64,000 nucleotides of DNA from Tribonema minus (taxonomy: Eukaryota > Sar > Xanthophyceae > Tribonematales > Tribonemataceae): NCBI GenBank assembly GCA_017506865.1, contig JAFCMP010000468.1, positions 744,001 to 808,000 of the forward strand. Direction: 5' to 3'. Under the pieces are notes generated by a model. It searched no databases. It was not told the DNA's origin and saw only the letters and a list, made by a program, of their open reading frames with translations. The position numbers were made by a program, and so were the translations under genes. This document shows, piece by piece, positions 1 through 64,000 of this stretch. The first letter of the stretch is position 1. Each line of letters starts with the position of its first letter.

Positions 1-3000
1 TGTACAAGGGCGCTCTCTGGCATGGGAGCGGATGCGAACTGCCTATCAAGGGCGGCGTGGTACACATACATACTGTATGCGGCAGCTACTGTCATTGCGC
101 ATGTACTGACATGCGAGCGGCTCATAGCGCTGACCTTCCCATGATGATGCCCACCAGCGCCGTGGAGTGCTGCTGCGGCGCGCCGTCCTGCAGCAGGCCG
201 TACGGCGCAACGCGCGCGCGTAGTTCCTCCATCGTGTCCGCGCAGAACGTAATGTGCGCCATCTGCGGGGCATCACGAAAAGCGAGTGGCATGCATCACA
301 TCGCTCTTCCATTTCGTGTTGTGAAGATGCGGGACATGCCGGCTTTTTGAGAGGCTATGCCGTGTCCGCGCGGGACGTGAAATGCGCCATCTGCGGCAGC
401 GGCACCAAAGCGATGTGTCACGCGGTGAGCACGTCGCGATGGCGTTGCGCATGGCGCGCCAGTTGTGTGAACAGTGGAACAGAGCGAGTGTCAGGCACGC
501 CGCCTGCTGACACACTAGCTGCGAAAGCAGAACCAGAACCTCCGCCATGTTTGCGCAGAACGAGATGTGCGCCATCTGCGGAGCGGCACGCGCTTCACCC
601 TCATGCATTGCTTTCTCTTCCGACAGAGTGTAAAGTAGCGACGAGCACCGCGCATGCGTCGCGGACTCACCTTGCGGCCCTTGCGCGCCTCCGCCTTGCC
701 GTACCAGTGGAGCGCCGCGCCGGGGATCGCCAGCGCCTTGCTCATGAGCGCCTTGGTCTCCGCCATGTCGCCGTTGCCGAGGACGTTGAGCATCATGCTG
801 CGGGGGCGAACGGCGCGGCGGCAAGCGGCGGCGGCGGCGCGTGCGGAGGTGAAGTTTGTGAGCGGCTGGGCGTTCAGAGAGCACGCATGCAGCTGCGAGG
901 CGCGCAGCTGCGCAGCAGCAGCATATGCAGCGGCGCGGCAGCAGCGAACGCAGCGGTGCGGCAGCGGCGCAGAGCAGCGCGTGCCGCGCGCACGACGCGA
1001 CGCGGCTCATCGTGGCCCCGTGCGACGCGCGCACGATTACGGGAGCAGGCGCTTACGCCTCGGACGCCCGAGCCAACCGCGAGGAGCCAGCGTGCCAGCA
1101 GGCTGAACAGAGCCTGGTTGGCAGCGCCGCCTCCGCCGGAGGAGACTCGAGCATCCGAGGCGCCGTGGATAGCGTCCTGTAGCGTGACGGGGCAAGTGTC
1201 CATTGTTTGCTGCATGCGCGCCACAGCGGCTTCAATGCTAGTTTGGCGCGCACCCCACTCGTCGCTCGCCTTCGCCCCCTCCGCTCGCGCTGCTGCCGCC
1301 TCGGTGAGCGCGCTGCGGCAAATGGCGCTCGAGTTTGCGATGCGACGGTGTCAATAGGAGGCCCTCAGGCGCGGCGGGAGGCGCCCCGAGGCACGGCCAC
1401 CCACGGCCGCAGACTTCAATGCGGCATCCAACAGCCAGCGTAACTTATACTTTCTTGTGGTCAAGACCTTCCATGAGCTCGCTGGCTGCACGAGCATTGC
1501 TACATGCGTGGCGGACCAGAGGGCGGCGGACGTGGCCAACAAGCTCCACAGGCCCGTAGACACCGTCGCAACCTTGAGCGCCAACTGCCACAGCGCCCTC
1601 ATCGAGGCGGCAGCAGCGCGAGCGGAGGGGGCGAAGGCGAGCGACAAGTGGGGTGCGCGCCCAACGAGTAGCGCTGAAACCGCTGTGCCCCCCCTGCAAG
1701 CGCGCGCCGCGATACTATGACGCGCTCTCCGCAGTGGTGCGCGAGCAGGTGGTGTGCGTGTCAGCACCGATCGACGCTCATACCTATGTACCACGCGCCC
1801 GCGCGCAGCCTCGTGCCGCCGAGCGGCAGCCGAGGATCGCGCGCAGCTGCATACACGTCACAGCCCGTCGCGACAGCTCAATACACACCTCTACATACAT
1901 GCATATATACACACATGCGTACCTCGCGCCCACGCGCAGCCGCGTGCCGCCGAGCGGCAGCCCTAGGATCGCGCGCAGGTGGTTCTCAAACTGGTCGCAC
2001 TCGCAGGCCTCGTACGTGTAGTGCCCCGTGTTGTGGGGGCGCGGCGCGACCTCGTTGAGGAGGACGTCCCCCTCGGGCGTGAGGAACATCTCTACGCCGA
2101 AGATGCCCGCACCCCAGAGCGACGCGACGGCCTGCGGGGGGGGGAGGGGGGGGGGGGGACAAGGAGGAAGTGGGGGGGGGGAAGGGGGGGCCGGGGGCAG
2201 AAAAAGAGGGGGTGGGAGGGTGTTAGCGATTTATTCATGCTGGACGGTAAGTGGTGACCAGCTCTGCGGTGTTGTGGCACACGCATGAGCCCCGGGTGGA
2301 AGCGCTAGACGCGCATGCACTGAGGCATAGCCCCCCTCGGGCGTGATGAACATCTCCACGCCAAAGATGCCCGCGCCCCAGAGCGAGGCGACGGCCTATG
2401 GGGGGGAGGGGGGGGGGGGGGGGTATCAGTAAGTGCCCGATGGTCCGCTCCTCTGCGTCGTGGCACAGGCGTGCGCTAGCAGTGCTTGGGGAAGCATATC
2501 GAGGGACAAATGGAACTGTCACCAACCACTTGAGTGCACACATACGCTCAAACTTGAAGCATGAAGATTTACACGGCAGGACAGTTAGGTCACTGGCCCG
2601 GCGCCACACCCCATCTTCGTGAACTATTGAGATGCCAAATTGAGAAGAGATAAGCTTGCAACAAGGGAGATGTAGTGCAACGAGCGTCAGAAAACACTGG
2701 TGATCTTTCCTGAGGCACACTCGGTGAGATCCGCGGACTGCCGACTGCCACTCAGCGACGAGGAAGGAAACCTTACACAGAAGGAGTGTTTTAATACACT
2801 TGTAGACAGGGTAGATGCACTTGTACACAGGGTAGAAAGGCATACATGTGCTCCATGGAGTATACCTGAAGTACACATACATACCTTGGAGGCGAGGGCG
2901 CTGGCCTGCTCTGTGAGCGCGGCGCCCACGTCCGCATACGAGTACACTTTACGAGAGCGGACAATTCATACATACTTGAAGCAGGAAAGAAAATAGATCA

Positions 3001-6000
3001 CCACCTTGGAGGCGAGCGCGCTGGCCTGCTCTGCAAGCGCGGCGCCCACATCTGCGGGCGCGAGCGTCGTGTGGCAGATGCTGTCCAGCTGCACGGCGTC
3101 GACCAGGGGGTACGCCGCCGTCTCGCCGCCGTCGCTGCGCACCACCTGCGGCAAGGGATTGTGACGCAGCGCGGTCATGAAAAGCAGGAAATTTGAATCG
3201 GCGTTCACACGCTGCAGGCGTGTGCGTAGCGCATGCTGCAATGTCGCGGGGGGGCACACGCACGGGGTTACGCCGTAGTCGCTGCGCACCACCTGCGGGG
3301 GGGCGGTCATCAAAGGCGGACAGCTTTGACTGAGCACTGTTGATCGGTCGTCGTCAACATGCTGTCGAGCTGCACAGCGTCGACCAGGGGGTACGCCGCC
3401 GTCTCGCCGCCGTCGCTGCGCACCTCCTGCGGGCGCGGTCATCGCAGGCGCGCAGCTTTGACTGACCGAGATGCTAGCGCCGCGTGCCCCATGCCAGATT
3501 GGACACTTCTGAATGCTGAGCACTGTGACCTGGCACTCTGATCGATCGCCGTCCACATGCTGCGGGCGCGTGCATAGCGGTCGCTGCACAGACCAGGGGG
3601 TACGCCGCCGTCTCGCCGCCGTCGCTGCGCACGACCTGGGGGTGGGCAGTTTTGCGGGGGTTCCAGCGCGTTGCAATCAGCAACTGCGAGCAGTTTCAAT
3701 GTAGCATCTTTGCACATTGCGGGCATATGGGTAACCCTCACCTAACCTACCCCTACATGATTCTGACCTCGTCCCTGCCGTCGCACCATGAAGGCGCCTC
3801 TACAGTGAACGGCAATCGCTTCCCCGCACGCCTGTTTTTGAACCAAACCCTCGTCTCAACTCAAATCCCAACCTGGGTCGGCTTTACCATTAACTTTGTT
3901 GTGGTGTCTCACCATGACGTCAACCCTGTTGGTGAACGTCCTGATCTGAATTTTAAACCTACCCTGACCGTACACCACACCCTCCCTCAGACCTGACCTC
4001 ATGTCATTCTGCACCTCACACCATGATGGGGATCTCCGTGGTGTGAAGGGCGCCCACTTCTCTGCAAACAGGTCCTGACACATACCCCAACCCTAATTTT
4101 GACCCGTACGTTCAACCGTAAAGCAACCCTACATTGGCTCTGTCTCGCCATCTCACCATGATGGCAACCTCCTTGGTGAACATGCTGATACGTACCCCAA
4201 GCCCTAACCTCAAACCCTAGCTTCACCCCCACCCCCGGCCAAACCCCACAAATCTCTTGACCCTGCCCCGCCACCGCACCGTGATGGCAGCCTCCTTGGT
4301 GAAGGGCCCCCACTCCTCAGCGCACAGGTCCCTGCTGCATGCCCCTACCCTGACCACAACCCTAACTTCAATCCCAATCCCGGCCAAACCCTATATACCC
4401 CTGACTTTGTCTCGCCGCCTCACCATGATGGCAACCTCCTTGGTGAAGGGCACCCACTTCTCGGCGTACAGGTCCTTGCCACCGAGCTTCGCGAACGCCT
4501 CGGACACCCCTGCCGCGTCCTTAACGACGGCGTTGCCCTGTGGAGCATCCGCGCAGCAGGGGGAGCGGCCGGGCAGGTGTTTGGGTCAGTGTTGACTGAA
4601 CTCATATTTCCAGTATGCGGCTGCCAAACACCGCACGGCATTTGCGAGTCAGAAAGTGGGGTTAGGGTAGGGGTAAGGTTAGGGCTAGAGTTAGGGCCTC
4701 GGACACCCCTGCCGCGTCCTTCGCGACGGCGCTGCGCTGCGGAGCGCCCGTGCCGCACCGGGGAGGAGCGGCGGGGGGGTTCGTAGCGGGTCATGCCGTG
4801 CCACAGGGCTGAGCGCTGAGCACATCGGCACGTCACCTGTGAAGTTGGAACGATCTACGCTACTGCACCAGCGAACAGCAGCCGAACACCGCATTGCAAT
4901 TGTGAGTCAGACAGCAGAGTTAGCGTCGTTGTGTCAAACGCACGAATCAGCGTTGTTGTGCCCAACGCATCAGTCAACGTTGTTGTTCTTCGCCCCGCAC
5001 ATACTGTACGGATGATGGATGCAAGCAGAGGCGCTCTTCTGTCACGGTGCAGGTTCTGTGTCTGCAGCACCGCCCGATGCCCGCACGCCTCCCTCCGCTC
5101 ATTGCGCACAGTGGACGAATGCCGACTGGCTACTGAAAAGGACAGCACATGCGCACGCCACTCTTCATCATAAGAACATCACATTGGCACCGTCGCCCTA
5201 TATCATACACTTCTCCGTGAAGTGTATCTTGTCACCATGTATCATACTGTGAAGTCAACTTCTCCTTGAAGTGTGACCTTGGAGTGCATATTGAGATGTA
5301 TCGCGTGCGCCTGACCGGTCCATCGTACGCCAGCTTCTTGGCCTTGAGAATGAGCACGAATGCCGATTCGTTGCTGAAAATGACATCTCATGCGCACAGT
5401 CACCCTATATTATGAGGACGTCATAGGCGTTATGTCGCCCTACATGACACTCTCCTCCTTGAAGGGTATCTTGTCACCTTATATCATACTTTGAAGTAAA
5501 CTTCTCCTTGAAGTGTATCTTGAAGTGCATCACGTGCGCCTCACCCGTCCGTCATACGCCAGCTTCTTGGCCTTGAGCATGATGATCGCGTGCATACATC
5601 ACCCTATATCATAAGGACATTACATGCGTATGTCGCCCTAAACCATGTACAATTCTGCGAGGTATACGTCTCACCCTTCCGTCGTACGCCAGCTTCTTGG
5701 CTTTGAGCATTAGCGGGTAGCCCCACCGCTCCCCCGCCTTTGCCACGTCCTGCTCCGTCGGCGTGTCCATGAAGTCGCCGACCGCAATGCCGCTCTGCAA
5801 GCGCACGCGAATTGCGACACCAACAACATTGAGAGTCTCGTTCCACATGGAGTTGACATTTCAACATGTGTTGAAATTCCTGCGCACATGTTGTAATTTC
5901 TGCGTTGGTCCAATCAGACCAATTATATCGTTTTTGGGCGAGCACATTGCGAGGCACGTCTCAGCTGCTGCCTGCAGTACCAGTTCTCACGCGCTTGGTG

Positions 6001-8486
6001 TTTCGTGAATGAAGGCTCCCAAAGGGAGGCCGGGTGTCCGGTGTGTTCCCAACATGCGCATCGTATACAGGAAGACAATCTTGAATCATGCTGCGCGCGC
6101 CACTCCAAATACGAGTTCGATGTGGTGCATTACATGAAGGCGAGTGCAAGCGGCGACTTGAGGTTCAAGTTAAAATTGAAGTTGAAGTTGTAAATACTCG
6201 TGAGCGAAGGGCCAGCTGTCATGCAGAGGTTCTGTGATCTCAGGCATTTGGCAAACACTTCTCAAAGCAGAGGAACAGACACAATTTTTCGAGCATTCTG
6301 CTGCTGCCGAATGTCAATGTTTCATATCGTGCAATCATGTACACTAGACAACACTGGTGAGACATGGATGTGTGCTGTTGGAATATGTACTCCACTCCAC
6401 ATGTAGCAGAACTGGAGTGAAAGTCTGAGGAGGTGGGAGTAGCGTGTCATGTGTTTCTGCATTTGCGTACGCGCCTCGACCATGTGCTGCTTCTGCAGGT
6501 ACTCATCCTTTATGGTGCGCACTGTGTGGCTGCTCTGCTGCACGCACACGCGACGTCCCTCTTTACTGTCAATGTACACCTCGGCCATGTGCTGCTTCTG
6601 CAGGTACTCATCCTGTATGGTGCGCACAGTGTGGCTGCTCTGCTGCACGCACACGCGACGTCCCTCTGTACTGTCAATGTACACTTCACCTCATCGCGGT
6701 GAATTCATTATTTGTGATGATCATACGCGCGCGTGCACGCGCCTCGACCATCTGCTGCTTCTGCACTTACTTGTCCTGTATCGTGCGCACGGTGCGGCTG
6801 CTGGGCTCCACGCTACATACCCTCTGTCGGCAGATCAGCTTGCAAATATACCTGAAGCATCTGCATTATTCGATGTCACCACGATTGCTCGCCTCGACCA
6901 TGTGCTGTTTCTGAAGGTACTTGTCCTGAATCGTGCGCACGGTGCGGCTGCTGGGCTCCACGCGCACGCCACGTCCCTCCAGCTCCTCCAGTATCTCGCA
7001 GTTCACGTGCTCGATCTCCATGGTGAGGATGTCGCACAGCGACGCCAGCTCGCTGAGCGATGGTGCGTGCGCAGCGCAGCAGCGAGCAGCAGAATTAGGC
7101 ACATAGGGGGGGGGTGTAGGCAGGATGGGAGCAAGCATAAAATTCAGCTCCATATAATTATGCTGCAGCACAAGATTGGTTACGCACAACAGGACGTGTC
7201 TGAGGACAACGCACAGTGACGCTAGCTTGCTGAGCGGTGTTGCTTAGCGTGGCAGCAAGCAGCGGCATCAGGCGCGTCTGGGGGTATGTGCGCATCGCAG
7301 AAGGCGCGTGCAGTTGCGCGCCGCGCTGCTGAAGCCCACCTGACACCTCGCGCTCGGCAAGCCTACTTCTACATTGACTTGAGTTGAAGATGCAGTAATG
7401 ATGGATTTGAAGTTACAACAATACCGGTGCACCGCTTCAAGCCCATTCACGGGCTCGTGCTTGACGAAGCCTACATGGATGTTGTCAGAAACAAGTAGTA
7501 GCCAGATGAGAAAAACTACAGCAGATTCGTGCATGGGTGTGCTAAATGTGCAAAACCTACCAGGAAAGGAATTTTCGTCCTCGTAACAATGGACACAGGA
7601 AAACAAAGCCTGCTGTAGACGTGAATAGCACCATATGTATGAGCCTGAAAATGCGAGCTCAACAAGATTGTGACTGAAGTCTGCTAGAGCGGATGTGCAC
7701 TGCTGTAAGCGCTAGCCTCGAGCACTCGGATGTGACAGTACCCACAATGGCTGGCACTGCTCCTCTGACAGTTTCCAACGAGATCTACAGACTCTATCAA
7801 GAAGCTCGCTTTGTGCTGCAGCACATACCATACAGCACCTGCAGGAACCTGAGTCACCGTGTGAGATCAGGGTACCGACATGCCGATGCTGAGTTTTGAA
7901 ATAAATATGACTGCGTATTACTTGTTGACCCCAGCAAGGTGACGAAGCATGACTACGGCAGCAGCATGAGCCTATGAAAGCTGACTTTCCTGTACTGTGT
8001 GCTTTATGTATAGCCTGGTACAAGAGGGTCAGAGCAGAGCTGCAACGAGGCAGACTGAGATGGACGAGACATTACTAAGAGCCACGTGACCTTGAGCAGA
8101 ACTGTGCACCAGCACAACTGTCGAGCAAATTTGATGCACTACTAGTGGATAAGTCACTGCACAGATGTCTTTCATGCCAAGAAGCATCTGTGTGGGTGCC
8201 ACCTGAATCGATAACTCATGCGATGTGTCATACACACTACCGTAGAATAGCAATTATCGAACACCATTGATCATATGCAAATATTACTATTTGTTCCTTG
8301 GACGCACTTGATTTTTTCTGGGTCCCGGAAGCTGCCCTCTACAGCCAGCTCAGCCACCTGCCCCGCTGGCGATGCCTTGCCCTCGGGATCCAGTGGTATT
8401 AGCTTGACGCCGAGCCTGTGGGCGGCTTCCGCCATCATCCGGCCCAGCTGGCCCCCTCCCAGGACGCCCACAACACGCTCGTCCAT
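1..8486 (-). CDS. ADE2: ADE2-type phosphoribosylaminoimidazole carboxylase (PurK-PurE fusion), 3' part beyond left edge
   Basis: AIR carboxylase of de novo purine synthesis. The ATP-grasp PurK half is here and the PurE half begins at the left edge. Exons (minus): 8486-8308, 7052-6891, 5792-5675, 4537-4424, 3145-3005, 2131-1923, 797-671, 262-135. Phases agree at every join. Visible blocks: N-terminal [33 protein letters not shown] joined to [42 protein letters not shown]; the ATP-grasp [10 protein letters not shown] and [14 protein letters not shown]; then MAHITFCAD and VGIIMG. The last donor (intron from 134) cuts inside the PurE start motif MGSDSD, so PurE lies off-window. The start ATG at 8486 is the first in exon 1 and sits in ACCATGG. 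The exon 2 donor reads GA (GAGGC/GAGCAA) if the family spacing is kept, so that junction is the least certain. Several introns carry degraded copies of exon edges. Confidence 0.93.
1219..1692. repeat. imperfect inverted repeat in ADE2 intron
   Basis: Bases 1219-1360 and 1555-1692 are inverted copies of about 140 bases around a spacer of about 195 bases. Shared words include GCGCGCACCCCACT, GTCGCTCGCCTTCGCCCC and TCCGCTCGCGCTGCTGCC, read forward in the left arm and on the minus strand in the right arm. I recognise no coding sequence here. Confidence 0.8.
3268..3642 (-). repeat. copies of ADE2 exon 5 5' edge
   Basis: Upstream (in the sense of the gene) of exon 5 (3145-3005) the acceptor-side segment encoding [21 protein letters not shown] is repeated at about 3642-3585, 3435-3355 and in part at 3300-3268, each preceded by a GCAG-type acceptor. 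A copy of the exon's other end ([17 protein letters not shown]) lies at 2945-2885, and a copy of the exon 6 start at about 2400-2325. Confidence 0.8.
4020..4345 (-). repeat. copies of ADE2 exon 4 3' end
   Basis: Downstream of exon 4 (ends 4424) at least three copies of its terminal codons and donor (family segment [21 protein letters not shown]) occur near 4345-4270, 4190-4140 and 4080-4020, separated by CCCTAACC-like spacer. A copy of the exon 5' edge (KDAAGVSEA with its acceptor) lies upstream at about 4770-4695, next to a TTAGGG-like tract at 4655-4700. Confidence 0.75.
5318..5585 (-). repeat. copies of ADE2 exon 3 3' end
   Basis: Two copies of the exon 3 end (encoding [10 protein letters not shown] followed by a GTGAGG-like donor) lie at about 5318-5350 and 5530-5585, downstream of the real exon end at 5675. 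Around them the tract 5160-5650 repeats AT-richer segments such as CACCCTATATCATA and CTTGAAGTGTATCTTG. Confidence 0.8.
6465..6840 (-). repeat. three degraded tandem copies of ADE2 exon 2 3' end
   Basis: Downstream of exon 2 (7052-6891) the intron holds three more copies of its last 80-100 bases at about 6840-6738, 6680-6578 and 6570-6465. The copies translate as [14 protein letters not shown] then a stop, [20 protein letters not shown] and [20 protein letters not shown]; the true exon has [20 protein letters not shown]. The last two copies stay in one open frame with each other. All keep the QK-Q-MVEA or MAEV exon end, so each carries a candidate donor (GC or GT, where the true exon shows GA). 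Confidence 0.85.
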
Positions 8487-9482: not shown

Positions 9483-12400
9483 TCACCGGAAGAAGGGGTT
9501 GATCTGCTCCGCCTGCGGGTTGTCGTCGAACGTCGCCAGGGGGACGTACTCCTCGCCGCCGCCCATGACCTCGTCGCGGCGGAAGAGGACGTACGGCTCG
9601 TTCGGTCCTGACTTCATGACGGCGCCCTGCGCGGCGCGCACGGCAGACGCATGTTGAAGTGCAGCATGTATTTATGAATAAACTCAATAAATAAATTTTA
9701 GTGCATGGTTCAAGTTCAAGGTGAATGTTAAAGTTGAGTTGCTGCCTCTGCAGCGTCATGAGACGCCTGCGCAGCATCACCAGCCGGGGTGAGGCCTGGC
9801 GAGCGGTGGGGATTTGTCACCATGCAACAGAGTGGACCCATCCGCATGAGGGTGTGCACGGGCACGGCGCAAACAGCGTACTTCACAGTAAACTTCAAAG
9901 CCAGGTACGGTCATGGGGTCACCGTCACTGCCGTCAGTCTGATTACCAGTGGAGGGTACCGTCATGTCGCTATTTAAGCCGGCGGGCACGTAATTGAGAC
10001 GATACTTGGCCCCAGAACTATTTAAGCCTGGGTAATACATTTGCTGGATTCAACTTAAGCCGACCCCCCCTGTTGCTGGTGAGGCATGTAGCTGCTTGCA
10101 CTGCACGCTGAGCTGTAAGTTGCTGTTATTGCACTGCACGAGTGGCAGAGGGCGCCCTCTTGAAGATTATATGTGATGCAGCACTGCCATCCAACTCTGC
10201 GGCCCTTCTGCTTCAGCTTCACCAAGCTCACGCAAAACTTCACGCGAAAGCTCAACAACAACTTGAACTAAAAAGAAAACGCCGCGGGTGCCCCCAGCGA
10301 ATTCGCGAAACAGCAATCGTATGGGGCCTGTTGTGTGGTGTTGAATGGTGTCTGATACAGGCGGGCCTAGTTTAAGCCTGGGGATACAAAGGCTTGTTCA
10401 ATTAGCTTGTCCAAGTTATACAAACGCCTGTTTTAATTAGGTGCCGCGCCGGCTTAAATAGCGACATGACGGTACAGGCTGGTGCCGCCGCGCTGCACGC
10501 CCCCCCCCCTCCCCCCCCCACCCACCCAAGGCTCACCTTGATGGGGAACATGGCAGCGCTCGCGGGGTACACGAGCCTGAAGTGGAAGGCGTCCTGGAAG
10601 GACGCCGCAAATTCGAGCCTGCGCACAAGGGAGGGGGGGGGGGGGGGAGAGCAGCGGTAGTGTCATTGATGTCACTAGTCTACCCGTTCGTACGCATGTA
10701 CGATCGGTGGTGTGGGACTGTGCAGCATGATCAGAGTAAACACTGCATCTCAGGCTGGCCGCAGCAATAGCGTTGTGCCTCTGCCCCTGAACCTGTCCCC
10801 TCTCCTACGCAATTCTTGAACAAGACCTACACCACCTCAGCCGGCGGTCGGCGCCGATCGGATGCGAGCGCCGACGCACCCTGGTCCGGGGACAACGCGC
10901 TGCTGCTGCCAACGGCAGGGTCTGGCGAGCACATTTGCGCTGGCAAGGCGACCAGTTCGTGTGGTCATCCGCGCATGTGCACATGAGCGGCAAGTGGCGC
11001 ACGCTGAAGCGGTGAACCAGCATTGAACTTTACAGACGCGAAGCAACGCTAGCTCCACGATTCAACTGCTGCATACTGCCACAAATTGGGAGAATCGTGC
11101 AATTGAGTGCGAAACGCGCAGGGCGGCCGGCTAGCAGCACGTCGGAGACAACCGGGGGCCAGTCGCATTCCGCCATGAGCTCCGAGATCAGCCGGACGAC
11201 GAGCGCGAGCGCGCGCGCGCACGGCGCGTTCGCACTCCACGGCGCCAACACCGCCGCGTCGACGCGCGCACGCGCGCGCTCACCTGTCGCCCCTCCCGCG
11301 CACGCTCATGATGCCGCCGCTGCTGGGGCGGTCCTTGAGGTTGGGGTTGACGAGGACGATCGGGCGGCCCCCCGCGGCACGCGCCATCTCGCTGAGCGAC
11401 TCGTGGATGCTCGCGCCGACGATGCTCTGCGGCGCGATGATCTGGGGGCGAGCGTGAGCAGCGAGCAGCGGCAATGGCGGCGGCGGCAGAGGAGGAGGCT
11501 AGCGTGAGGCTGACGCGCAGGCAGCAGCGGCGGTGGAGGGCGTGGCGACGGTTTGAGAAGCAGTGCTCAGGTGCCGCAGCGCTCAGCGATGCGTGGATGC
11601 TCGTGCCGGCGATGCTCTGCGGCGCGATGAACTGAGGGCGAGCACGCGTGAGCGGCGAGCGGGCGCCGGCAGAGGCGGCGGCGGAGGAGGAGGAGGGGGC
11701 ACCGGCGGGCGTCAGGCAGCAGCGGCGGCGGAGGGCTTGACAAGGGTTCAAGGCGCGGTGATGGTCGTGCGCCCACGTGCCGCAGTGTTCAGCAATGCGT
11801 GGATGCTCGCGCCGACGATGCTCTGCGGCGCGATGATCTAGGGGCGCGCGCAAGCAGCGAGCGGCGGCAATGACGGCGGCAGGGGGGGGGCCAGCGGCGG
11901 GCGTGAGGGTGACGCGCAGGCAGCAGCAGCGGAGGGCGTGACGAGGCTTCAATGCGCGGTCATGGTCCCGCGCTGAGCGACTCATGATTGCACAGCAGCA
12001 GCGGCAGCGGCGGCGGCAGCTGCGGCGGCAGCAGCGGCGGCGGAGGAGGGGGCAGCGGCGGGCGTGAGCCGATGCACGGGCGGCAACGGTTGCAGGGCAG
12101 GTCGTAGCGCTCAGCTCGCATGCATAGTGCTCAGCAGCGCGGCCATCAGCCGGCGCAGGCGCGCGGCGGCAGCGGCGGCAAAGGAGGGCATAAGGACGGG
12201 CACGAGCTATGGGCGTGCACGCGGACACTGGCTCTGGGGGGATTATGAGAGTTGATGACGCTCTGCAGCTACACGGCGCGTGAGCGTGTGAGGCACGCAC
12301 GGGGAAAGAGAAAACTCCCATGACGAGCTCCAGCTGTGGACCCGTCAGCGGCGCATGCCACGCCGCAGGCCGCCCAGCTGAGCGGCGGTGTCGTCTCTAC

Positions 12401-15400
12401 GGTGAACAAAATCCAACCACATGCCACTCTGTGTTCTTTTGGAAGCGTTTGCACGCGCGCTAAACACTGATCACGTCGTCGCATCGTGCTCACGCGCATC
12501 GGGCTGCTATGCTCAGCAAAGCCGGCAGAGCGCGCGCCGGCCGTGCCACGCTACAGCAGGCAACGGAGCGCGTACACGGCTGGCAGTAATCAGCCGCGCA
12601 ACCTCACCCCACCAACTCTCCAGGTGTGACGTCCTGACTTGCTGCGCGCTGCCGCATGAAGCACCGGGCTTCAATGGTGTTCCGCCGCAAGCCACTTCGC
12701 GTGCTCGCAGCGGTGAGATACGCTCACCTCGATGACGCCGTCCTCCGGGTCGACGAACTCTTGATCACGTCGTCGCATCACGCTCACGCATATGACGTGA
12801 CGCGCGCCGCGCCGCCGCGCGGTGCCGTCTCTACGGTCAACCAATTTCAGCCACATACCGCGCTGTTCTCTTGTGAGAAGCGTTTTCGCGTGCACTCACC
12901 ATGATGACGTCATCCTCAGGGTCAACGAACTCGGCGCCGACCTTGCCAAAGTTGACGGACGCGCCGACGTAGCCCTCGCCCCAGTCCATGCGCTCCATGA
13001 TGGCGCGCGTGCCGCTCAGCGACAGCGGCAGCCCCGTGAAGATGCCGACGCCCATGCTGCCCTGCACGCACACCCTGCGCAGCGGCAAGCGCGCGACAAG
13101 CGACATGGTTGCGGACCAGCGCTGCGTGAGTCAGCGCACCCGCTGGGCGTCGAGGTCCCGCGTGCGGAACCGCCGTGGTCTTGGTTTTCGAAATGTGTAC
13201 ATTTCAGACATCGGCACGCAGCGGGCGCATGCTGCCCTGCAAGCAGACCCTGTGCGCGCACCACGCTGACAGGCGCTGTGCGAGTCAGCGTGCACCGGCC
13301 TGGCATTGTGGTCATGCGGGACCAGTCTTAGTTTGAGATGTGAAGGATCCCATGTCAGCATTCAGTGAGCCAACAACGCGCGTCGCGATGCGGGACCAGT
13401 CTTAGTTTGAGATGTGAAGGATCCCATGTCAGCATTCAGTGAGCCAACAACGCGCGTCGCGGACGCTGAGCAGTCGGCGCACGCGCCCGGCGTCGTCACG
13501 GGCGCGCATGCGAGACTCAACGTCGCCCCTTGTGCTAGGGCTTTGCGGCGCCGACGCTCACTCATACCTACATACCCACTGCGGCGCCGCGCGGCCGGCC
13601 GAGGACATTGTGTACGCAACCACACGTGCCGTGAACTCGCGCCGCCAGGCGACTCGTGACTCTGAACCTTGACTCGACTCATGACTCACTTGACTCTCTT
13701 GCCCTCGTCCGCGAGCCCTGTGGCCAACTCGCGCACCAGCTCCAGCATGGTGCCGACGCGGTAGGTGTCCTGCGCGATAGCGGCAAGGGGTAGGATAGTA
13801 TGCACGTGAGCGCAGACAGACACATCAGGGGTACCGCAGCGCGCTGCTCCATGACGTACGTAAACGTGCCATCGAGCTTCCGCTTTCAGCAACGCACTTC
13901 GCGACTGTCTGTGTTGTTGGGACAGCGCAGTCTTGATGTGCAGCGGGAGGTAGTCACAGGCACTACAAACATTGCTCTCGGAGGTGACTCTACCAGATGC
14001 ACGATAGTTGTGGAGTAACTTCCATCATGCGAAGCCACGCCTAGAGACAGTGCGGCGGAGTTGGCCCCCTCCGCGACCTACAAAACAGAGAACCCAATCA
14101 CGCCACCTGCGAAGGCGACGAGTCAAAAGAGGACAAAACCCGCACGCAACGACATAAAATTCTTCCTCATGAAAACTACTTCTTCCAGCACGGTGCTTGC
14201 AGTGCACGCTCTGGCACTTTTTCGCGAGGACGGCGGCGACGTGTCATGCGCAAGGCGTATGGCAGCGGGCACGGGGGCCTCGAGCGCACACGGCTCTCCC
14301 GCGTCGTGGAAGGCCGCCGTCAGCTGCGGCGTGCACCACCTCTGGGCGTGCTCTGTCGACCGGCGACGGCGGACGAGGCACGGACACCCGATACTTCATT
14401 TGCAGTTGAAGTTTCAATTGGTTAAAGTTATACTTCAATGTTGAAGTTGAAGTTCACTTGACGAAATTAGTGCTCGCGCTGCTGGTGCGCGCTGCAGCGC
14501 CAGCACGTGTGCCCAGCGCACGCAGCGACGTACCCCCCAAGCAACCACAAGATAGCTGGAGCTCTGCGATCTTTTAATTTGTTTCCATAGATACAGTGCC
14601 ATGTACTTCCAGAGTAGTTGAGATGCACAAGGAAGGCCCTCCCTTAATCCTCCGGAGGTAGGGGGCGAGGGACCCATACCCATTGTGTGGAGAAGGCTAG
14701 CAACGGGCAAGCTGCGCTCAAAGCGGGTCAGAGACCATCGCTCCCACCTCAGCAAAGGGTTTTAGAACGTGCGTCAAATGCTGCTTTGCGTTGAACATGT
14801 GAGCGTTCATAAAACTACGTACACCTTGCGAGCATGGATTCTGCCTTCTTGTGAGACCGAACGTCGGCAAAATCCAACAACGCGCAATGACGCGTTAAAA
14901 CGCGCTGCGAACGCACTCGAGTGCGTTAATGCGCATTTCTGCCACAAGCTCGCGTGCACCTTGCCACATGTTTGTGCGTGAAAGAGAGCCATGACGCGTT
15001 CAAACGCGTTATAATTAGTTTTCCGAAAAAAACGCACTACAATGCGTTTTGCCCGTGTTGAGGTTTCAATGCTGCTTGAGGTCAAAAACGCACTTTAACG
15101 CGTTATATTTCTGACAGTGGAGCGTGCCACAAATGCGCTATAATGCGTTTTGCCGTCGTGTGGAGAACGCACTATAGCGCGCTATAACGCACTGAAACGC
15201 GCGTTGTGTGGAGAATGCGCTATAGCGCGATACGCACGTACGCATACCCGCTCGCAAAAACCAGCACGCCCAGATGCATCGGAAGTGTGGAGAATCGCGC
15301 GCGCGCCGAAATACCTAAGAAGGCTCGCGCCCTGAAGGGTCCCTCGCCTATAACGTGCACTTAATGTAGTAGTAGCTCTCAAGTACCACGCGTCATGCAA

Positions 15401-18400
15401 CAGCACTCACAATCTCGAAATTGAGCTCCGGCACGGTGCAGCGCACCGTCATGCGACGCGGGAACGCATCGTCGTCGATGGCCTTGAACAGCGCAGCGCA
15501 CGCGCCGCGGTAGATGAACGTGCCACGTATCTCAAAGTAATCATGATACACGTGATGTAATTGTAGCTTTCAAATACCATGAGTCACGAAGCAGCGCTCA
15601 CCAAATCAAATTTGAGCTCTGGCGCACCGTCATGCGGCGCGAAAAGGAATCATCGTCGATGGCCTTGAACAGCGCCGCGCACGCGCCGCGGTAGATTCAG
15701 CACCACATACTCCAAAGTAATTACGATACACATAGGGTGATTGCCACGAGTCCGCAGCAGCACTCACCATCTCAAAATTGAGCTCCGGCACGGTGCAGCG
15801 GACCGTCATGCGGCGCGAAAAGGAATCGTCGTCGATGGCCTTGAACAGCGCCGCGCACGCGCCGTGGTAGATGAAGGCGCGCGCCAGGCGGCTGTGCGGC
15901 ACGTTGTTGAGGCGCAGGTTCTTGGGCAGCCCGCTGTAGCTGCCGACGGGCATGTTGTAGATGGTGGCGGTGGCGGCGGACAGGCCCTGCGTGGGGGGGG
16001 GGGGGGGGGGGGGGGTAAAGGATACCGGGTATGTACGTAGATGTGGTGTGTACACCTGTAGACATTCATGTAGATATAGGACAGGCCCTGCATTGCGTCG
16101 GGGGGAGGGGGGGGGCGGGGGGCGATAGACTTGTACAGGTATGTATGCAGGGTGTGTGTTGTAGATGGTGGCGGTGGCGGCGGACAGGACCTGCATTGCG
16201 CGCGGGGGGGGGCGGGGGGGGGGGGGGGTAGAGTTGTACATGGAGCGTATGCAGGCTGTATGCCTCAGGCATGGCTGGCAGGGAGGGGGGCATGGTGTCA
16301 AACTCAATTGACGCACAAGGTGTGTATGCCTTGACATGGTGGGCAGGTGTATACATACATGGTAGATAGGTATCCATGTGCGCGTGTGAGTATGCTCAGG
16401 GGGTTGTACGTGCAAATGCATGCGTGCCGCCTGCGGCACACCGCGAGGATGCTCCCGATTCTGCAGAAACATTCTCAACCAGTGAGAGATATGCCTGCTA
16501 CTGTACACGCTTGAGCTGGCCACATGGGCAGGGCGTGGGACGTCTTAGAAGCTCGCAACCCCCCCCCCTTCCCTCCCTGGCCGCCGCCAGCCACGGTTCA
16601 CCGGCAGGAGACGACATGCGCGGAATCACCACGAGACACGCCATTGAGCAGCGGAGCGCGCACAGCCCTGCTGAGCGCTGCTGCCACTGACGCGCCCACC
16701 TGCCGCCGGCTTATCTTTGTGACCCAGCGCTCGATGCCCTCCGCGGTCGTGCTATACGTACCTTCACGTGTAGGAATTATACCTACCTGTACGCACCTGC
16801 CGCTGGCTCATCTCCACGAGGCAGCGCTTGATGCCCTGCACGGTACCTACCCTCATGTGTAAGTGTCAGATCTACGTACCCATCCCCACCTGCCGCCGGC
16901 TCATCTCCATGAGGCAGCGCTCGATGCCCTCCGCGCGGTCGTGCTACGCCCATCCTCACGTATAAGTACTGTACATACCTACCCGTACGCACCTGCCGCC
17001 GGCTCATCTCCATGAGGCAACGCTTAATGCCCTCCGCGGTCGTCACCTCGCGCGCCCACGGCAGCGCCACGCGCACGTCGCGCTCCTCGTGCGTAACGCG
17101 CCCGAAGAACGTGCGCCGCGACACCCGCGCCCTGCGCAGCGGTGGCGGCGGTGGCGGCGGCAGCAGCGGCGGCGGCGAGGAGCGCACGGCGCGCTGTTAC
17201 GCGGGTCGAGAAGTAGTGCTGCGGCCGAGGCCGCTGCGGGCAGAGGCATGCGAGCAATGCCCGGGCGCCATACAGAGGCACTGCGCGCTGTCATGCTGCG
17301 CCCCCCACAGCAGCGCCTCATGCACATGCATGCCAACACAGCGTCGACGCCGTGAAAGCGTGCTCGCCGCTCATGCGCCCGCTGGCTAACGCGCCGCGCC
17401 AAGCATTCCGTGACTGTTAAGGCGCCGCGCGTGGCGATCGGAGCGCGCGTCTCCGCTGCTGGTGGACCGCTGCCACTTGCTTAGGGCTAGGGTAAGGGTT
17501 AGGGTTAAGCCGCCCCGCTTCGTGTCACGCGCGCCCCGCGCTCGGCGCCGCGTTCCCCCCCCAAAACAAAAAACAAAGTGTACTGCCTGTACAACGGTGG
17601 ACCCCAAAGACCCGCTGGCCGACGGGGGCGGCATTACCTGATGGTTGGAGGAGCGTCTCCACTCTGCGCCGGCGCGGACGAGCCCCCCCGGGCCGGTATT
17701 TGCCGCGGCACACACCTGTTTGTCAGTGCATGCGCGGCTGCCCAGCGCCGTGAGTGTCGCGCCGTTGAGCACGAATGCGCCCCCGCTCCAGCCGTCGGCA
17801 CGCGACAGTGCGCAGCACACCTGCCGCCCACCTCGACCAAGCACTGAAGCGCAGCGCGCACCTGATCATCATTGCGCAGCCGTCCAGCGCCGTGAGCGCC
17901 GTGCCGCTGTGTACGAACGCGGCCCGGCTCCAGCCGCTGGCGCGCGACGGCGCGCAGCACCCCCTCCCACACACACACACACCAATAAACCAATGAAGCA
18001 CCGATCGCTGCAGTGCACCTTATCGTCAGCGCGCGGCCGTCCAACGCCGTGAGCGTCGCGTTGGCGCACGAATGCACGAACGCGCCACAGCTCCAGCCGT
18101 TGGCACGCGACAGCGCGCAGCACACACCCCCACCCCATCAACCACTGAAGCACTGATCAACACAGCAGACACCTTGTCGTCTCCGCGCAGCACCAATCAC
18201 CACAGCGGCGCACCTTATCGTCAGCGCACGGCCGTCCAGCGCCGTGAGCGTCGCGCTGTCGAGCACAAACGCGCCCTGGCTCCATCCGTTCGCGCGCGCC
18301 GCCTCCTCGCCGAGCTCCGTGTAAGCTGCGCGTGCGCGGCGCAGCGCGCGGAGCGGCGTCAGCAGGATGCCTATGCTGTGCAGGTCTGACTGCTGCTTGA

Positions 18401-48201: not shown

Positions 48202-48236
<35 letters not shown>

Positions 48237-51200: not shown

Positions 51201-54200
51201 TGGCGTCCTTGAAGGGCACCTCCAGCTCCACCATCTCCCACATGCACATGCCGAAGCTGCAGGGCGGGCGCAAAGGGGGGGGGGGGGGTAGGGGTGTCCT
51301 TCGATGTCAATGGCCGGCAGCTTCTGCGGACCGTCATATGCGCTCTGGTGATGATGGTGATGACTCTAAAAGCAGTATGCAGCGAGCATAACGCAGCGTC
51401 AGCGTACTCCCCAAATTAGGAGACAAGCCGGATGTGACTCTCCGTCGGCCCTTGCCCGACCAGGCCGCACTGCGCACGCCTGACGCCCAAACCTCAACCT
51501 GATCTTACTCTCACGCCAGCCCAGAGCCAGCCTTGGTCCAATCCCAGCCCGCACCTGTACGCGTCAATGTTCTTGATGCACGGCATGTTAAGGTGACACT
51601 CCGGCTCCATGCAATCCCAACTCTACCCCTGAGTCACCCCTAAACCGTAACCCTAACCCTAGCCCTAGCCCTCACCTGTACACGTCCGCTTGCTCGTTGT
51701 ACGGCAAGTTGAGGTGACACTCCGGCACCATGCAGTCTCAACCTTAACCCTGATTCCACCCCTAAAACCCCAACATAACCCTAGCCTAAACCCTCACCTG
51801 TACACGTCCACCTTCTCATTGTACGGCAAGTTGAGGCAACACTTCGGCGCCATGTAGACCCCGTCTCGCCCAAGAGATTCTTGCATCGATTCACGTTATT
51901 GTCCAAAGAACACGCTGGTATCAGGCACTTCATGCTGTCTCTCACGTAGGCCGGTAATCTCAATGGCTGTATTTCACGAAGGCAGACGCGCTTGAAGTTC
52001 ACCTGCACACGTCCACCTTCTCATTGTACGGCAAGTTGAGGTGACACTCCGGCCTGGCCTAACCCTGATTCCACCCCTAAAAGCCTAATACATGCTTACC
52101 CTGATTTTCCACCCCTAAATCCTAGCCTAACCCTAGTGTAACCCTAGCCCTCACCTGTACACGTCCACCTTCTCATTGTACGGCAAGTTGAGGTGACACT
52201 CTGGCGCCATGTAGCGCGGCGATCCCGTCTCGCCCGTCATCTGGTAGCGCGCGAGGGGCTTGCCGTGGCAGTCGGCGCGCGAGCGCTTCACGAGCTTCGC
52301 GAGCCCGAAGTCGATGACCTTGAGCGTGCGCACCTCCGCGCCGGCCTTGTCCTGCCGCAAGGGGGATAAATAGAGTGCATGTGCATTGCTCAGCAAATGC
52401 CCTTTTGAGAGATAGCTCCCTGCCCCCGCCGCATGCGAAAGTTAGGGTGTTGCGGAGAGACTCGGAAAGCACAGCTCGGCACGCAGCTGCAGCACAGAGC
52501 GTTGATGCGACCTCGAGCGTGCGCACCTTGGCGTCGGCCTTGTCCTGCCGCGAGAGCAAGGGAGGCGTTGCAGCATTGCTCAACAAATAAGACCCTGTCA
52601 GCAGGAGAACGCGATAATTCAACTGTTCTGGAGAGACTCGGGACACCCAACAGGGAACATAGCTGCGGCAGAGGCCTACAGCGCCGGCCTTGTCCTGCCG
52701 CGACAGCGTGAGAGGCGGTGCACGCGCGTTGCTCAGCGAACACCCTGTCAGCAGGCAGATCCCTGCCGCAGTGTGCAAGAGTTCGAGTGTTCCGGAGAGC
52801 AGTGCATCAGGCTACGTACTGCGCGTGAGCGCCGCGCCCAACTTGTACACGCTGAAGGCGATGATGTCCGGCTTAGGTGAACAAATATGTCCACGTTAGG
52901 GTTAGGGTTGGGTCAGGAAGTAGGGTCGCGTACTGATTGCGTACTGAGCGGCGCGCTCACCTTGTGCACGCTGAAGGCAATATTGTCCGTTTGAGGTCCA
53001 CAACTGCTGTCAGAGTTAGGGTCAGGGCTGGGTCGTGGCTTAGGGTTACGAACTGCGCATGGGCGCCGCGCTCACCGTGTGCACGCCGAAGGCGATGTTT
53101 GTCCGGCTTTAGATTCAGGTTGGGGATCAGGTTGGGGATCAGGGTTAGGGTTGGGGTCTGGGCTGGTTTGTGAAGTAGGGTTAGGGCTGGGTCATGAAGC
53201 AGGGTTGCGCACTCTGCGTGAACGCCGCGCTCACCTTGTGCACGCTGAACGCGATGTTGTCCGGCTTGAGGTCGCGGTGCATGAGCACGTAGCCGTCGAT
53301 CGCGGTGCAGTGCAGGTGGCGCATGGCGCGCGCCAGCGACAGCGCGTTGCGCACGACCTGCGGCGGCGGTTACGGCAGTTACGCGTGCGCGGGGGGGGGG
53401 GGTTGAGGGGCGCACGCGTGTATACCGCCGCGAGTGCATATGGGCGTCTGAGTGTGAGACCTGATGGTTGTGGCCAATGGCAAGGCACTGGTCCGATTGA
53501 CTGCCCAATGCGGGCAGCAGAACGTCAGCCGCAAGGTGCATCTACACGAGCACAAGCCTATGCCTTTGATGATGTGCCATCAGCTGCAATGGTGCAGGAC
53601 CATTGACTGTCGCCATCAGTGTTTGCAAACAGAGTGCTGCCATGCGGCGCCGTGGGGTGCGATCGCTGCAGCGTGCGCGTCGCAGCCACAAACGCACTAG
53701 CAATGTGATCGTGCACGGCAGTACAGTGCGGGGAGTGGCATGCGCGGCGCGCCGGAAAGAGGCCATCACGCTGCCCCTTCTGGAGGAGGGTGAGACTCTT
53801 TGGGCTAGCGCAAGCCAGCTTTGAGCTCGACAAAATGTGTGGATGCATCGCGGACGCGTGCGTCTTCGAGTCAACACAGCACGCCTCAAAGCCATCGGCA
53901 GCATTCGGGTTCTGCTGCGATGCGCAGTGCGTGCATGCGCCGCAGAGTAGACTGAACGCATGGCGCGGCATATCTGGCAGGACGTATTTGGGGGTATGAG
54001 TTCTTTGCACCGTCGACTGCTGCAACATGCGTGCAATATGCGCACTTGACCGAACCCTTACTAGCACAGTCAGGCAAACCAGGGGGCATGGCTTCAGCGC
54101 CTGCTGCTGCTGCTGCTGCCCGCCGCCGCCGCCGCCGCTGCCTGCCTAATGTGCGCGTATGAGCACTGCTGCCATGCGTATCATTCACAACCTGCGATAT

Positions 54201-57780: not shown

Positions 57781-60400
57781 ATGGGAGACAATCTTGACGA
57801 AGGCGACTGGGTGGAGGAAGTCGCAGAGGCCACAGCAGAGGCGGACCTCGTGGAGGGCGATTCAGACGCTGCAGGAAGCGATGGAGACACCTCATATGCA
57901 TCCGACGCATCCGATGTGCAATTGTCAGACGACGAGAGACCTCAACATACGCAGCCACCCAGCAGTCCTCCGACCAAGGGCAAGAAGCGAAAACTGCCAG
58001 AAGACTCCGGTGTAGATACTCAGAAGGCCGCAAAGAAGGCTGCGAAATTAAAAGAACTGAAGCTGAAAACACAAGCAAAGCGGCAAGAAGCATCAGCGGA
58101 GCAAAGTAGCAATGGCCGCGGCAGCAGCGATGCCTCCGCGTTGACGGCGCAGCAGGCGGCGGATGCGGTGTGGGAGCGGTGCTGTGCGGTACTGGGGCCC
58201 CAACTGGCAGAAATTGAGCTGCTGACGCCGTGGGTGGAGGCGGAGGACATGGCGGTGTTGGAGCAGTTTGGCGCGCACACCATCGCCAAGCTGCCCGGCT
58301 ACATCAAAGGTGAGCATCGCTGGTAGACAAGAACCCGCATGGCTCTTCTCGTAGTGGCAGCTGATGGCGTCTCGATATCGCCTGAATGAGTTGCTCGAAT
58401 GAGATCTTTGCAGTGCTCCCTGTGCACAGTGGTCATCCCCCGAGCAAAGACGCCAGAGCTCGGGCGGTGCCGACACGGCAGGGCGCAGGCAGGGGCCTTG
58501 AGAGCACCGCGAGAAGGACGATCTGGTTGACTGCCGTGCAGTGTTTGAAGTAGTGACTGGTGAATGTCATGCGGGCGCGCAGGCGCCAGTTTGTGCGCTT
58601 AAGCGCTGGCGTCCAGAGCCAACTGACTGTGGTGACTCTCCTGCGACTTTCTCAATACACACAGCCTGCATCAACTGTCGGCGCGGCAATGCGCTGCCGC
58701 ACCGATGGCTGGCAAGGCAAAGGGGAGAGGACGGTGCCGTCGGATGCAGGGCTGTGAACTCACTGTAGCGTCACTTGTAGCGTCACTTCAACGCGCCACA
58801 TCACGCAGGGCTCACCTGTCGCGGAAACGCAACCCTCGTGCTGACGCGTACAGAGTCATGTACTCTGCGACGGCCGAAGGTTGACGCTGGACTGCGAAAG
58901 GCACCTTGCACTGCGACGTCACGCGCTTTTGTGCCAAGTCTAATCTGAGTTGGGTTTGTAGGCCCTGGGATCTCGTCCGTGAGCGTGGCGGGCAGGCTCT
59001 GCGCCTGATAAGGTTCGACTACACTTTTGACTGGCAACAGAACTGCTAGTGCCACAGCAGCATTTGTGGGTGCCGCATTCAGATGAGCTACTCGTGAAGA
59101 TGTACGGCAAGGGGAGGGGTCAGCGATTATGCACCGCATGCCGTCACTCCGCCAGTGTGACACATGGTGACTGATGAAGACGTCAAACTGCTTTTGGGCA
59201 CACCAGTCAACATTCATCGCTGCGCCGTCGGCGTCAGTCACCAGTGGACGGTGACTCAAAATACACGATTCACCACTCTTTCGGCATGCGTCGTTGTCCT
59301 GCGGCGCCCGCGACTGCACGCACGCGTATGCCCATTCTGCGCAGCAGCACGCCGTCGTAGAAGAAATGCACACGCGTCCGCTGTGCTGGTGACGCAGCTG
59401 TCACGCGCCTCAGCAGCTGCGCTCACGCGCCACCTGCTTGCCCCCCCCCGCCCCCCCCCTGCCCCTCGCACCCACCGACAAACCAAACAGCCACGCTCCC
59501 CAACTGGCGCGCGCTGACTGCCGCGGCGCCGGCGAAGGACAGAGGCAGCGGCGGCGCGGTGAAGTGGGGGGCGGGGAAGCCCAGGGGGGGGGGCGCCAAG
59601 CCGCCCGCGCCGGGCGCCGGCAGCCCGCCGATCGTCATCGTCTGCAGCGGCGCGCGGCGCTGCATGGAGGTGATCAAGGCGCTGTCGCCGTTCCGCTGCC
59701 AGGTGCTCAAGCTCTTCGCCAAGCACCTCAAGCCCGCGGAGCAGGCCAAGATGCTGCGCCGCTACTTCCCCATCGCGGTCGGGTGAGTGAGGCAGTGAGT
59801 GAGTGAGTGAGTGAGGCAAGGATGCTGCGCCGCTACTTCCCCATTGCGGCCGGGTGAGTGAGTGAGTGAGTGAGTGAGTGAGTCCGCGCCCAGCGGCGTG
59901 TGCGCTGTGGTCCGCCATGCGCCCTCCACGTCAACGCGGTGAGGGGAGGCCCGCAAGTCCGGCTACGGCGCACGGAGTGGAAGCACTGTGGCCCCCGCTG
60001 CTCCGCGCTGCGCGCCGACGCATGCGGCAACCGTGCGATCTCCACGATGAATGCGGTGTCCGGCAGTCAACGCCAGATGCATGCGCCTGGCCCTCCGCTC
60101 GCCGCCGGCGCCGGCCGCCGTCATGCCGCGCTCCCCCACCGCGCTGACCCCCCCCCCCCCCCCCCTCCCCCGCGCGCACGCAGCACCCCCGGCCGCGTGC
60201 TGAAGCTCGCCGCGGAGGGCGCCGTCGCGCTCGGCGGCACGCAGCTGCTGCTGCTGGACGCGGCGCGCGACGCCAAGGGCCGCAGCGTGCTGGACATGGC
60301 CGGCGCGCGCGAGGACCTGTGCGAGCTGCTGCGCGCGCACGTGCGGCCGCACCTGCGCAGCGCGCCCGGCCCCGGCGCGCTGCAGCTGGGACTGTACTAG
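57781..60400 (+). CDS. CMS1: CMS1/CMSS1-family ribosome biogenesis protein, 345 aa, 3 exons
   Basis: Exons 57781-58309, 59491-59782, 60184-60400 (TAG). GT-AG, phases 1 and 2 agree. The N-terminal 110 residues are acidic, then lysine-rich (GKKRKLPEDS; KKAAKKAAKLKELK), as expected for a nucleolar protein. The C-terminal half carries the DEAD-box-like Cms1 signature: PPIVIVCSGARRCMEVIKAL, QVLKLFAKHLKPAEQ, FPIAVGTPGRVLKLA, LGGTQLLLLDAARDAKG. The length is slightly above yeast Cms1 (about 290). In yeast it associates with the small-subunit processome; that role is inferred for this copy. The first intron acceptor lies after a C-rich tract at 59441-59465, and the second after a C run at 60149-60166. 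Both the exon 2 end and the last exon end are duplicated nearby. Confidence 0.93.
59783..59883 (+). repeat. GAGT microsatellite grown from the 5' splice site, with exon-end copy
   Basis: The CMS1 exon 2 donor GTGAGTGAG begins a (GAGT)n tract. 71 bases on, the exon end (codons for MLRRYFPIAAG) reappears at about 59817-59853, followed by its own donor and a second (GAGT)7-8 tract (to 59883). The reading phase at the copied donor is the same as at the real one. Confidence 0.9.
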
Positions 60401-60550
60401 TCAAAATTTAATGCCGGGGGGGGGAGGGGGGGGGGGGGTCATTGTTGAAGTTGGCGGGCCTTGTGAGCGCGCCCGGCCCCGGCGCGCTGCGGCTGGGCCT
60501 GTACTAGTTGATGCTCACCGGGGGGGGGGGGGGTCATTGTTGAAGTTGGC
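60357..60550 (+). repeat. duplication of the last codons, stop and 3' flank of CMS1
   Basis: The terminal GCGCCCGGCCCCGGCGCGCT through TAG (60357-60400), and the following G run plus TCATTGTTGAAGTTGGCG, are repeated at 60467-60550 with the copied TAG at 60505. Period is 107 bases. Confidence 0.9.
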
Positions 60551-62082: not shown

Positions 62083-62114
<32 letters not shown>

Positions 62115-63438: not shown

Positions 63439-64000
63439 GTAAGCGCACACCAACACACTGTCGGTCGCAAGCGCTCTTCATGCGTGAAGACCGCGGCTCT
63501 TGTCTCAAGCGGGCTGCAGCGTTATGCTCCAGCAGGCGGCAACCGGCACTGTACGCGTGACGAGCGCAATGCGTTCGCAGCAGCGTGCGCAAATCCGCTG
63601 AAGCACCTCGCCGCTGCAGCGGGCCCGTCTGCAATGAAGTGTCAGTGCATCCATATTGCTGCGCCTGAGGGCCCCCGTGGCGGCACTTCAGCGGCAGTCG
63701 TGGCCCCTGCAAGCGGAGGGAGGGCGGCAGCGCCGACTCGCAGTGTAGACCATCTTGACTGGCACGCCTGTCACCAGAGACAGCTGTGCGACATTCATGA
63801 AACCTCTGCTTCCCACCTAACTTCACCTGATTTACACGCCAATTTTCTCAGTGGGATGTGCGGGCAGCAGACTCTGCTGAACAGCAGATGTCTCTGGGCT
63901 TCAGCCTCGCCAGGTTCGTGTAGGCAGCCATGTGAGCTTCTGGCAGACTGGACATGCTGACATTGCAGCCGTGTGCGGGAGGTTACGCCATGTCCCATTG
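63439..64000. other. right-edge sequence without a supported gene
   Basis: Probably intron or further exons of the plus-strand gene. Both strands are open for long stretches, but no segment carries a family signature. Confidence 0.35.

Follow-up and report, generated by a model that had tools for sequence, protein, structure and literature searches.

The window analysed here is a 64,000-nucleotide (nt) stretch of the xanthophyte Tribonema minus (assembly GCA_017506865.1, contig JAFCMP010000468.1, below C468:744001-808000), whose introns contain repeated copies of the exon edges and splice sites that adjoin them. The assembly sampled comprises 158 Mb in 554 contigs, and the analysis covered 254 kb, namely the window and 190 kb from other stretches of the genome. 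Exons were obtained with a purpose-built gene finder (score at least 8, length at least 40 nt), so exon edges are predictions throughout. Over the 254 kb, 150 of 160 predicted exons were retained, while the other 10, being copies themselves, were demoted before counting; 61 exons are predicted in the window. Homology supports a minus-strand PurK/ADE2 gene covering roughly 1-7060 (PDB, E=1.4e-67), a DUF1995 exon near 11.3 kb, and a protein kinase gene at 50-57 kb, which has a paralog on contig C104. A CMS1-like match at 59.5 kb falls under the Pfam cut-off. A Pfam match was lacking for six of the ten window pieces submitted, and nothing was found when the window was scanned for tRNAs and against Rfam.

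Exon-edge copies in the window and beyond

Copies are present at 26 exon edges of the window, 16 of them donor and 10 acceptor edges. They number 44 and are 78-98% identical to the edge (Table 1). Over the 254 kb, 62 edges (33 donor, 29 acceptor) bear 125 copies, a count confined to the stretch up to the next predicted exon. The copies are mostly 35-85 nt long and are positioned inside introns. Comparison of the window with itself gave 81 repeat pairs, nearly all direct and spaced by less than 700 nt, and about 15% of the sampled sequence falls in local direct repeats. An earlier sequence-only reading of the window had reported tandem junction copies in at least 15 introns of five genes. All seven intervals that it named were recovered, with two to four copies of the exon edge apiece: 51551-52155 (four copies, 79-96% identity), 52836-53235, 6465-7052, and 17712-18214 (three each), and 30005-30486, 37900-38297, and 11441-11845 (two each). 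The affected introns are estimated at about 20, below the number of edges because some edges share one intron, which agrees with the reported minimum. The figure of five genes is plausible: PurK, the DUF1995 gene, and the kinase stand by homology, but the CMS1-like match lies below the cut-off and the rest are predicted only. Both donor and acceptor edges are affected by repeated tandem duplication, as had been stated, and the same was found in the C104 kinase and in two light-harvesting complex (LHC) genes of contig C1.

The relation of the copies to their own exons was examined with edge queries of 50 exon and 15 intron bases, searched in the flanks of the same exon and in those of distant exons at a threshold of at least 40 bits; 139 of the 150 exons had full flanks, giving 278 edges. 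The own adjacent flank was matched by 59/278 edges and the own opposite flank by 6/278, whereas mismatched flanks gave on average 0.37 matches and never more than two in 100 trials, which excludes chance. In exons of at least 180 nt, the middle was matched in 3/67 cases, compared with 23/134 edges of the same exons. Repeat pairs no more than 800 nt apart are direct in 252 cases and inverted in 9; ten of the 252 lie wholly within an exon, and one spans a whole exon. The duplicated unit measures 79-322 nt (5th-95th percentile; median 139), and the alignment covers at least 0.85 of the period at 57 loci. Nucleosome-sized units were considered in view of this median.

The arrays differ in size and content. 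In the kinase intron 51260-52154, four copies of the donor and the 51-81 exon bases before it lie downstream of the true donor. The G-rich intron start is clear in the copies ending at 51798 and 51676 and partial at 51555, and the copy at 52003 diverges after GTGA. Upstream of exon 169680 of the C104 kinase, eight acceptor copies are spaced by 205-230 nt; all of them keep CAGGT, preceded just upstream by CTAAC in five and CTAAT in two. Further edges of this gene bear five copies (exon 172587) and three (exon 164908). In one LHC gene of C1, an acceptor with a C-rich tract and a near-identical 45-nt exon start occurs three times in succession, and a motif search found one acceptor at the matching place of its paralog on contig C79.

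For every 10 kb, C468 holds 10.5 local direct pairs and C104 holds 12.4; five other single 10-kb stretches hold 1-5 each. The sequence-only reading had called the phenomenon genome-style, which fits the first two contigs but not those five stretches, where none of the 16 testable exons had an edge copy at 40 bits or more. The pair-based list nonetheless has an edge in C10 and another in C490, and independent arrays are present on C468, C104, and C1. The process is thus not confined to the window, and it may be unevenly spread over the genome.

Table 1. Predicted exon edges of the window with their copies, and two young tandem duplications (window coordinates).
Feature	Copies	Extent	Strand	Remark
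Kinase exon 52155-52351, donor edge	51999-52053, 51791-51857, 51663-51735, 51540-51611	51540..52351	-	exon backed by C104 paralog
Kinase acceptor edge 52351-52354	52509-52554, 52681-52701 (upstream)	52155..52701	-	second copy in paralog comparison only
Kinase exon 53235-53360, donor edge	53064-53112, 52946-52998, 52827-52878	52827..53360	-	HRDLKPDN
PurK exon, donor edge	6756-6813, 6593-6666, 6488-6561	6488..7052	-	donor predicted 6921 (homology ~6892)
PurK exon 6921-7052, acceptor edge	7201-7243	6921..7243	-	
PurK exon 5675-5794, donor edge	5537-5580, 5308-5355	5308..5794	-	
PurK exon 4458-4537, donor edge	4299-4335, 4043-4076	4043..4537	-	
PurK exon 4458-4537, acceptor edge	4696-4745	4458..4745	-	
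PurK exon 3002-3134, donor edge	2883-2935	2883..3134	-	
PurK exon 3002-3134, acceptor edge	3359-3430 (96%), 3591-3638 (98%)	3002..3638	-	start probably ~3144
PurK exon 1915-2131, donor edge	1788-1849	1788..2131	-	
PurK exon 1915-2131, acceptor edge	2332-2406	1915..2406	-	
PurK exon 135-262, acceptor edge	361-396, 539-590	135..590	-	
Exon 11284-11441, acceptor edge	11580-11643, 11798-11850	11284..11850	-	DUF1995 domain
Exon 12900-13074, donor edge	12723-12760	12723..13074	-	
Exon 15768-15986, donor edge	15587-15661, 15397-15480	15397..15986	-	
Exon 15768-15986, acceptor edge	16157-16194	15768..16194	-	
Exon 18214-18325, donor edge	18015-18094, 17852-17931, 17713-17789	17713..18325	-	
Exon 22906-23109, acceptor edge	23190-23223	22906..23223	-	
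Exon 27074-27320, acceptor edge	27429-27486	27074..27486	-	
Exon 30486-30701, donor edge	30301-30349, 30130-30186	30130..30701	-	
Exon 38297-38436, donor edge	38109-38169, 37913-37951	37913..38436	-	
Exon 38845-39027, donor edge	38716-38782 (94%)	38716..39027	-	
Exon 42036-42249, donor edge	41788-41833, 41376-41419	41376..42249	-	
Exon 59398-59782, donor edge	59814-59868	59398..59883	+	71-nt tandem unit; weak CMS1 match, sub-cut-off
Exon 60184-60400, donor edge	60466-60508	60184..60508	+	
Young perfect tandem duplication, 74 nt, 100%		13314..13461	.	off annotated exon edges; alignment ends with unit
Young tandem duplication, 79 nt, 98.8%		35301..35461	.	off annotated exon edges; alignment 3 nt past unit

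The PurK donor near 6892 is apparently GC (GAG|GC), and the copies there bear GC or GT.

Decay, splice-site retention, and age of the copies

Exon and copy mismatch at 152/1977, 153/1976, and 313/1965 of the first, second, and third codon positions (7.7, 7.7, and 15.9%), and 54/61 indels in the exon parts have a length not divisible by three. By substitution, the exon parts diverge by 0.103 and the intron parts of the same alignments by 0.161; these indel, mismatch, and divergence counts are not independent because the alignments overlap. The third-position excess and the frame-breaking indels fit untranslated copies of an exon that is itself held by selection at positions 1 and 2. When one intronic copy is compared with another, the exon-derived part overall differs about as much as the intron part (206/1761 vs. 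687/5726), and without three rows of the large C104 array it differs less (182/1442 vs. 457/2527). Tandem duplicated (mutually exclusive) exons were considered and rejected, given the single pair among 252 that spans a whole exon and the indels that break frame. It had also been claimed that decay increases away from the true exon. This was not borne out: the nearest copy is the more similar one at 19 multi-copy edges and the less similar at 13 (p=0.38), and identity does not follow distance across 95 copies (Spearman rho -0.04).

The splice dinucleotide is retained in 56/61 mapped donor copies (GT/GC) and 43/46 acceptor copies (AG); an earlier count gave 51/57 and 44/50. Free decay at 7.7% per base is expected to leave about 85%. 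On the splice matrix, the true site scores higher than the copy in 56 of 107 comparisons, equal in 22, and lower in 29. The many competing splice sites proposed by the sequence-only reading are therefore present as sequence, in 99/107 mapped copies, and the word competing would apply in that sense.

The age of the copies was approached with paralogs. Five kinase exons were compared between the C104 kinase (gene B) and the window kinase (gene A). In gene B, diagnostic sites in the copies mostly favour the own exon (e.g., 15:1, 13:2, and 12:2), and in gene A the ratio is 6:1 for the own exon in one case; the copies 52509-52554 and 52681-52701 together have the state of their own exon, not that of the paralog, at 8/9 diagnostic sites. 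The C1 LHC loci L025 and L031 bear exon-edge copies, and no local direct repeats were found in L024 and L030, the C79 paralogs, whose exons are about 90% identical to theirs. Among the ten LHC loci examined, two of which are nearly one stretch, three hold any local direct repeat. As the copies mostly carry the state of their own exon and the C79 paralogs lack repeats, the origin of the informative copies, or else their homogenisation, falls after the separation of the paralogs. The copy-bearing state would then be derived in both comparisons, kinase A against B and LHC C1 against C79. From the paralogs and a few near-identical duplications we infer that duplication is ongoing, as had been suggested.

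The two LHC genes of each contig stand in opposed arrangement (C1, about 1.237-1.242 Mb; C79, about 1.258-1.261 Mb), and little of their non-coding sequence is alignable. The genome contains 92 light-harvesting (PF00504) matches, which together with the introns indicate a photosynthetic eukaryote. The best PDB matches of three LHC queries were fucoxanthin chlorophyll a/c proteins or LHCI chains of 9vfj, the latter followed by chains labelled ACPI and CAC; no PDB match is close to the LHC queries.

How the copies may have arisen

The explanation favoured here, and in our judgement a probable one, is that local tandem duplication is frequent, that units straddling an exon edge are tolerated, and that the copies then decay. 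Duplication has been frequent in these stretches, as the sequence shows, and units lying wholly inside an exon or over a whole exon would mostly be eliminated. Units that are intronic or straddle one edge would be tolerated, as the original exon and its splice site stay in place. A straddling unit would place the exon edge and splice site in the adjacent intron, downstream for donors and upstream for acceptors, which is the arrangement observed. Arrays then extend by further duplication, and the copies decay without sign of coding constraint, one result being discordant (below). The intron becomes longer and collects splice sites that would be dead or latent by-products. The likely molecular source is slippage during replication, or else end joining that uses little microhomology; three of the youngest duplications have 0, 3, and 4 nt of it. 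Young full-length duplications also occur off annotated exon edges (13314-13461 and 35301-35461). Much of the pattern requires only frequent tandem duplication and tolerance of units straddling one edge.

Several points weigh against this explanation. The exon edges on which it depends are themselves predictions. The discordant result is that intronic copies compared with one another keep a third-position excess (43/595, 60/597, and 104/586). A single duplication followed by free decay would not predict this; gene conversion, base composition, or copies made separately while the exon was changing may be the cause. The copies 3359-3430 and 3591-3638 have a near-unchanged exon part beside an altered intron part, and the seven donor-edge copies of gene A have two informative sites each, split 1:1. 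The remaining points concern position. Repeat clusters include an exon edge in 63/100 cases, against 24.8 +- 3.8 expected from displacing them by at most 600 nt to positions that satisfy a viability rule (3/103 clusters, only within or over an exon, were dropped). Among intact arrays, 27/57 include an edge against 16.2 +- 3.0, and none of 300 shifts exceeded 25. Simulated detection gives an edge share of just 17-19% or 21-25%; slower loss of exon-anchored pairs raises that share only modestly and is thus not the full explanation.

The same excess is what speaks for junctions as true hot spots, as the sequence-only reading had supposed, and modelled detection bias does not account for it. A paused polymerase, an R-loop, a nucleosome edge, or G- or C-runs beside the splice sites might then provoke duplication. 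The excess shrinks, however, once exons are masked and detection relies on non-coding sequence only: 21/83 clusters then touch or overlap an edge, with 15.5 +- 3.2 expected, and 1/14 pairs of at least 90% identity do so, with 1.0 expected. Masking removes copies that hold little intron sequence, which makes this test conservative. Unannotated exons depress the expected count somewhat. At copied edges, neither GGG (p=0.54) nor CCC (p=0.19) is significantly enriched in the first 60 intron bases, and promotion of duplication by such runs was set aside on that ground. Partly decayed pairs, with an alignment below 0.6 of the period, lie at an edge in 40/75 cases against 15.9 +- 3.3; this excess is larger than that of the intact arrays. 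What is left of the hot-spot claim is a residual excess of about 1.3- to 1.7-fold, which may reflect an at most modest junction preference. That introns grow preferentially through duplication of their own splice junctions, with about one in five exon edges carrying one to nine spare sites, is put forward as unlikely, and true hot spots are rated a shade lower still.

It could also be supposed that the copies are in use, whether as decoys, as alternative splice sites, or, in recursive splicing, as AG|GT ratchet points. The 99/107 copies with a splice dinucleotide, the 29/107 that outscore the true site, and the C104 acceptor array at exon 169680, with CAGGT in all eight copies and CTAAC or CTAAT upstream in seven, would be in keeping with use. 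Against it, 54/61 indels break the frame, the dinucleotide is retained near the level of free decay, and AG|GT is not significantly enriched at copied acceptors (5/32 vs. 12/114; Fisher p=0.53) or donors (16/29 vs. 47/113; p=0.21), so that recursive splicing at AG|GT is unsupported and use of the copies in general appears very unlikely. Introners or another mobile element filling the introns, which contain repeated units as such elements would, are a still more remote prospect: introners are reported in 5% of the species searched (PMC9860276), but the repeats here stay close to the exon of their own intron, from which they come, and the 4/81 window pairs more than 1 kb apart are all inverted and lie within simple GCC- or CTG-rich repeats or next to them. 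No sequence common to introns of different genes was found in the self-comparison of the window, a genome-wide search not having been made. An assembly artefact has just as little in its favour: the assembly is partly redundant, since the small contigs C296 and C489 repeat parts of C490 and C70 at 99.94-99.98%, but the 44 window copies, at 78-98% identity, lack the near-identity of a misassembly, and arrays stand independently on C468, C104, and C1. The pairs C296/C490 and C489/C70 were also considered as allelic and rejected, as the small contigs merely repeat the larger ones.

Known systems and other repeats

Junction-straddling duplication is a known kind of accident, and its density here looks unusually high. 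In the potato RdRp gene, an intron was created by a tandem duplication crossing the intron-exon boundary (PMC4974935). The likeness to such junction-crossing genomic duplication lies in direct, close copies and in a unit that spans exon edge and intron, with the copy on the intron side. The potato case is a single event making a new intron, whereas here the 62 edges and 125 copies lie inside apparently existing introns. In the Rogers/Hellsten AGGT-exon-duplication model (via PMC4974935), local tandem duplication likewise supplies extra GT and AG; there, however, the unit lies within the exon and yields a new intron, and here units straddle existing junctions. Gao and Lynch (2009; via PMC4974935 and PMC3443670) described segments duplicated inside genes, in some cases together with a whole intron or a latent splice site. 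Rogers and Bendich (2025; PMC11782384) presented direct repeats at splice borders, but these measure 4-30 bp and stand at or near both intron borders, unlike the mostly 35-85 nt copies within introns found here. Introners also add repeated sequence to introns, but they are dispersed in many genes (PMC9860276), whereas the present copies are local and exon-derived. Among the literature matches listed, which leave most subscription journals outside their coverage, no report of a comparable density of junction copies was found.

With about one-fifth of the tested exon edges bearing copies, often several, the system would allow the lengthening of introns and the speed at which spare sites die to be measured, and the paralog pairs supply states with and without copies. 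The arrays would also show how the spliceosome chooses the right site among near-identical neighbours. If the junction preference is true, they would amount to a natural saturation experiment on how splice sites are chosen, and new introns would have a lasting source.

Other repeats were noticed in the same material. Words of the type CCCTAACCC/GGGTTAGGG are frequent in introns (window 51600-53210 and others), with 17 in 84 kb of C468 and 28 in 120 kb of C104, compared with fewer than one in single-base shuffles; at some C104 acceptors, CTAAC within sequence of this type stands at a possible branch-point position. At window 34193-34328, two perfect 40-nt tandem copies overlap an inverted repeat of 91% identity. 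Past the window, at window-relative 72030-74000 of C468, a satellite-like array with a 228-nt unit and 92.7% identity reaches the end of the sampled stretch, and four long tandem arrays at 211-227 kb of C104, whose period is 80-81 nt, may encode a repeat protein.

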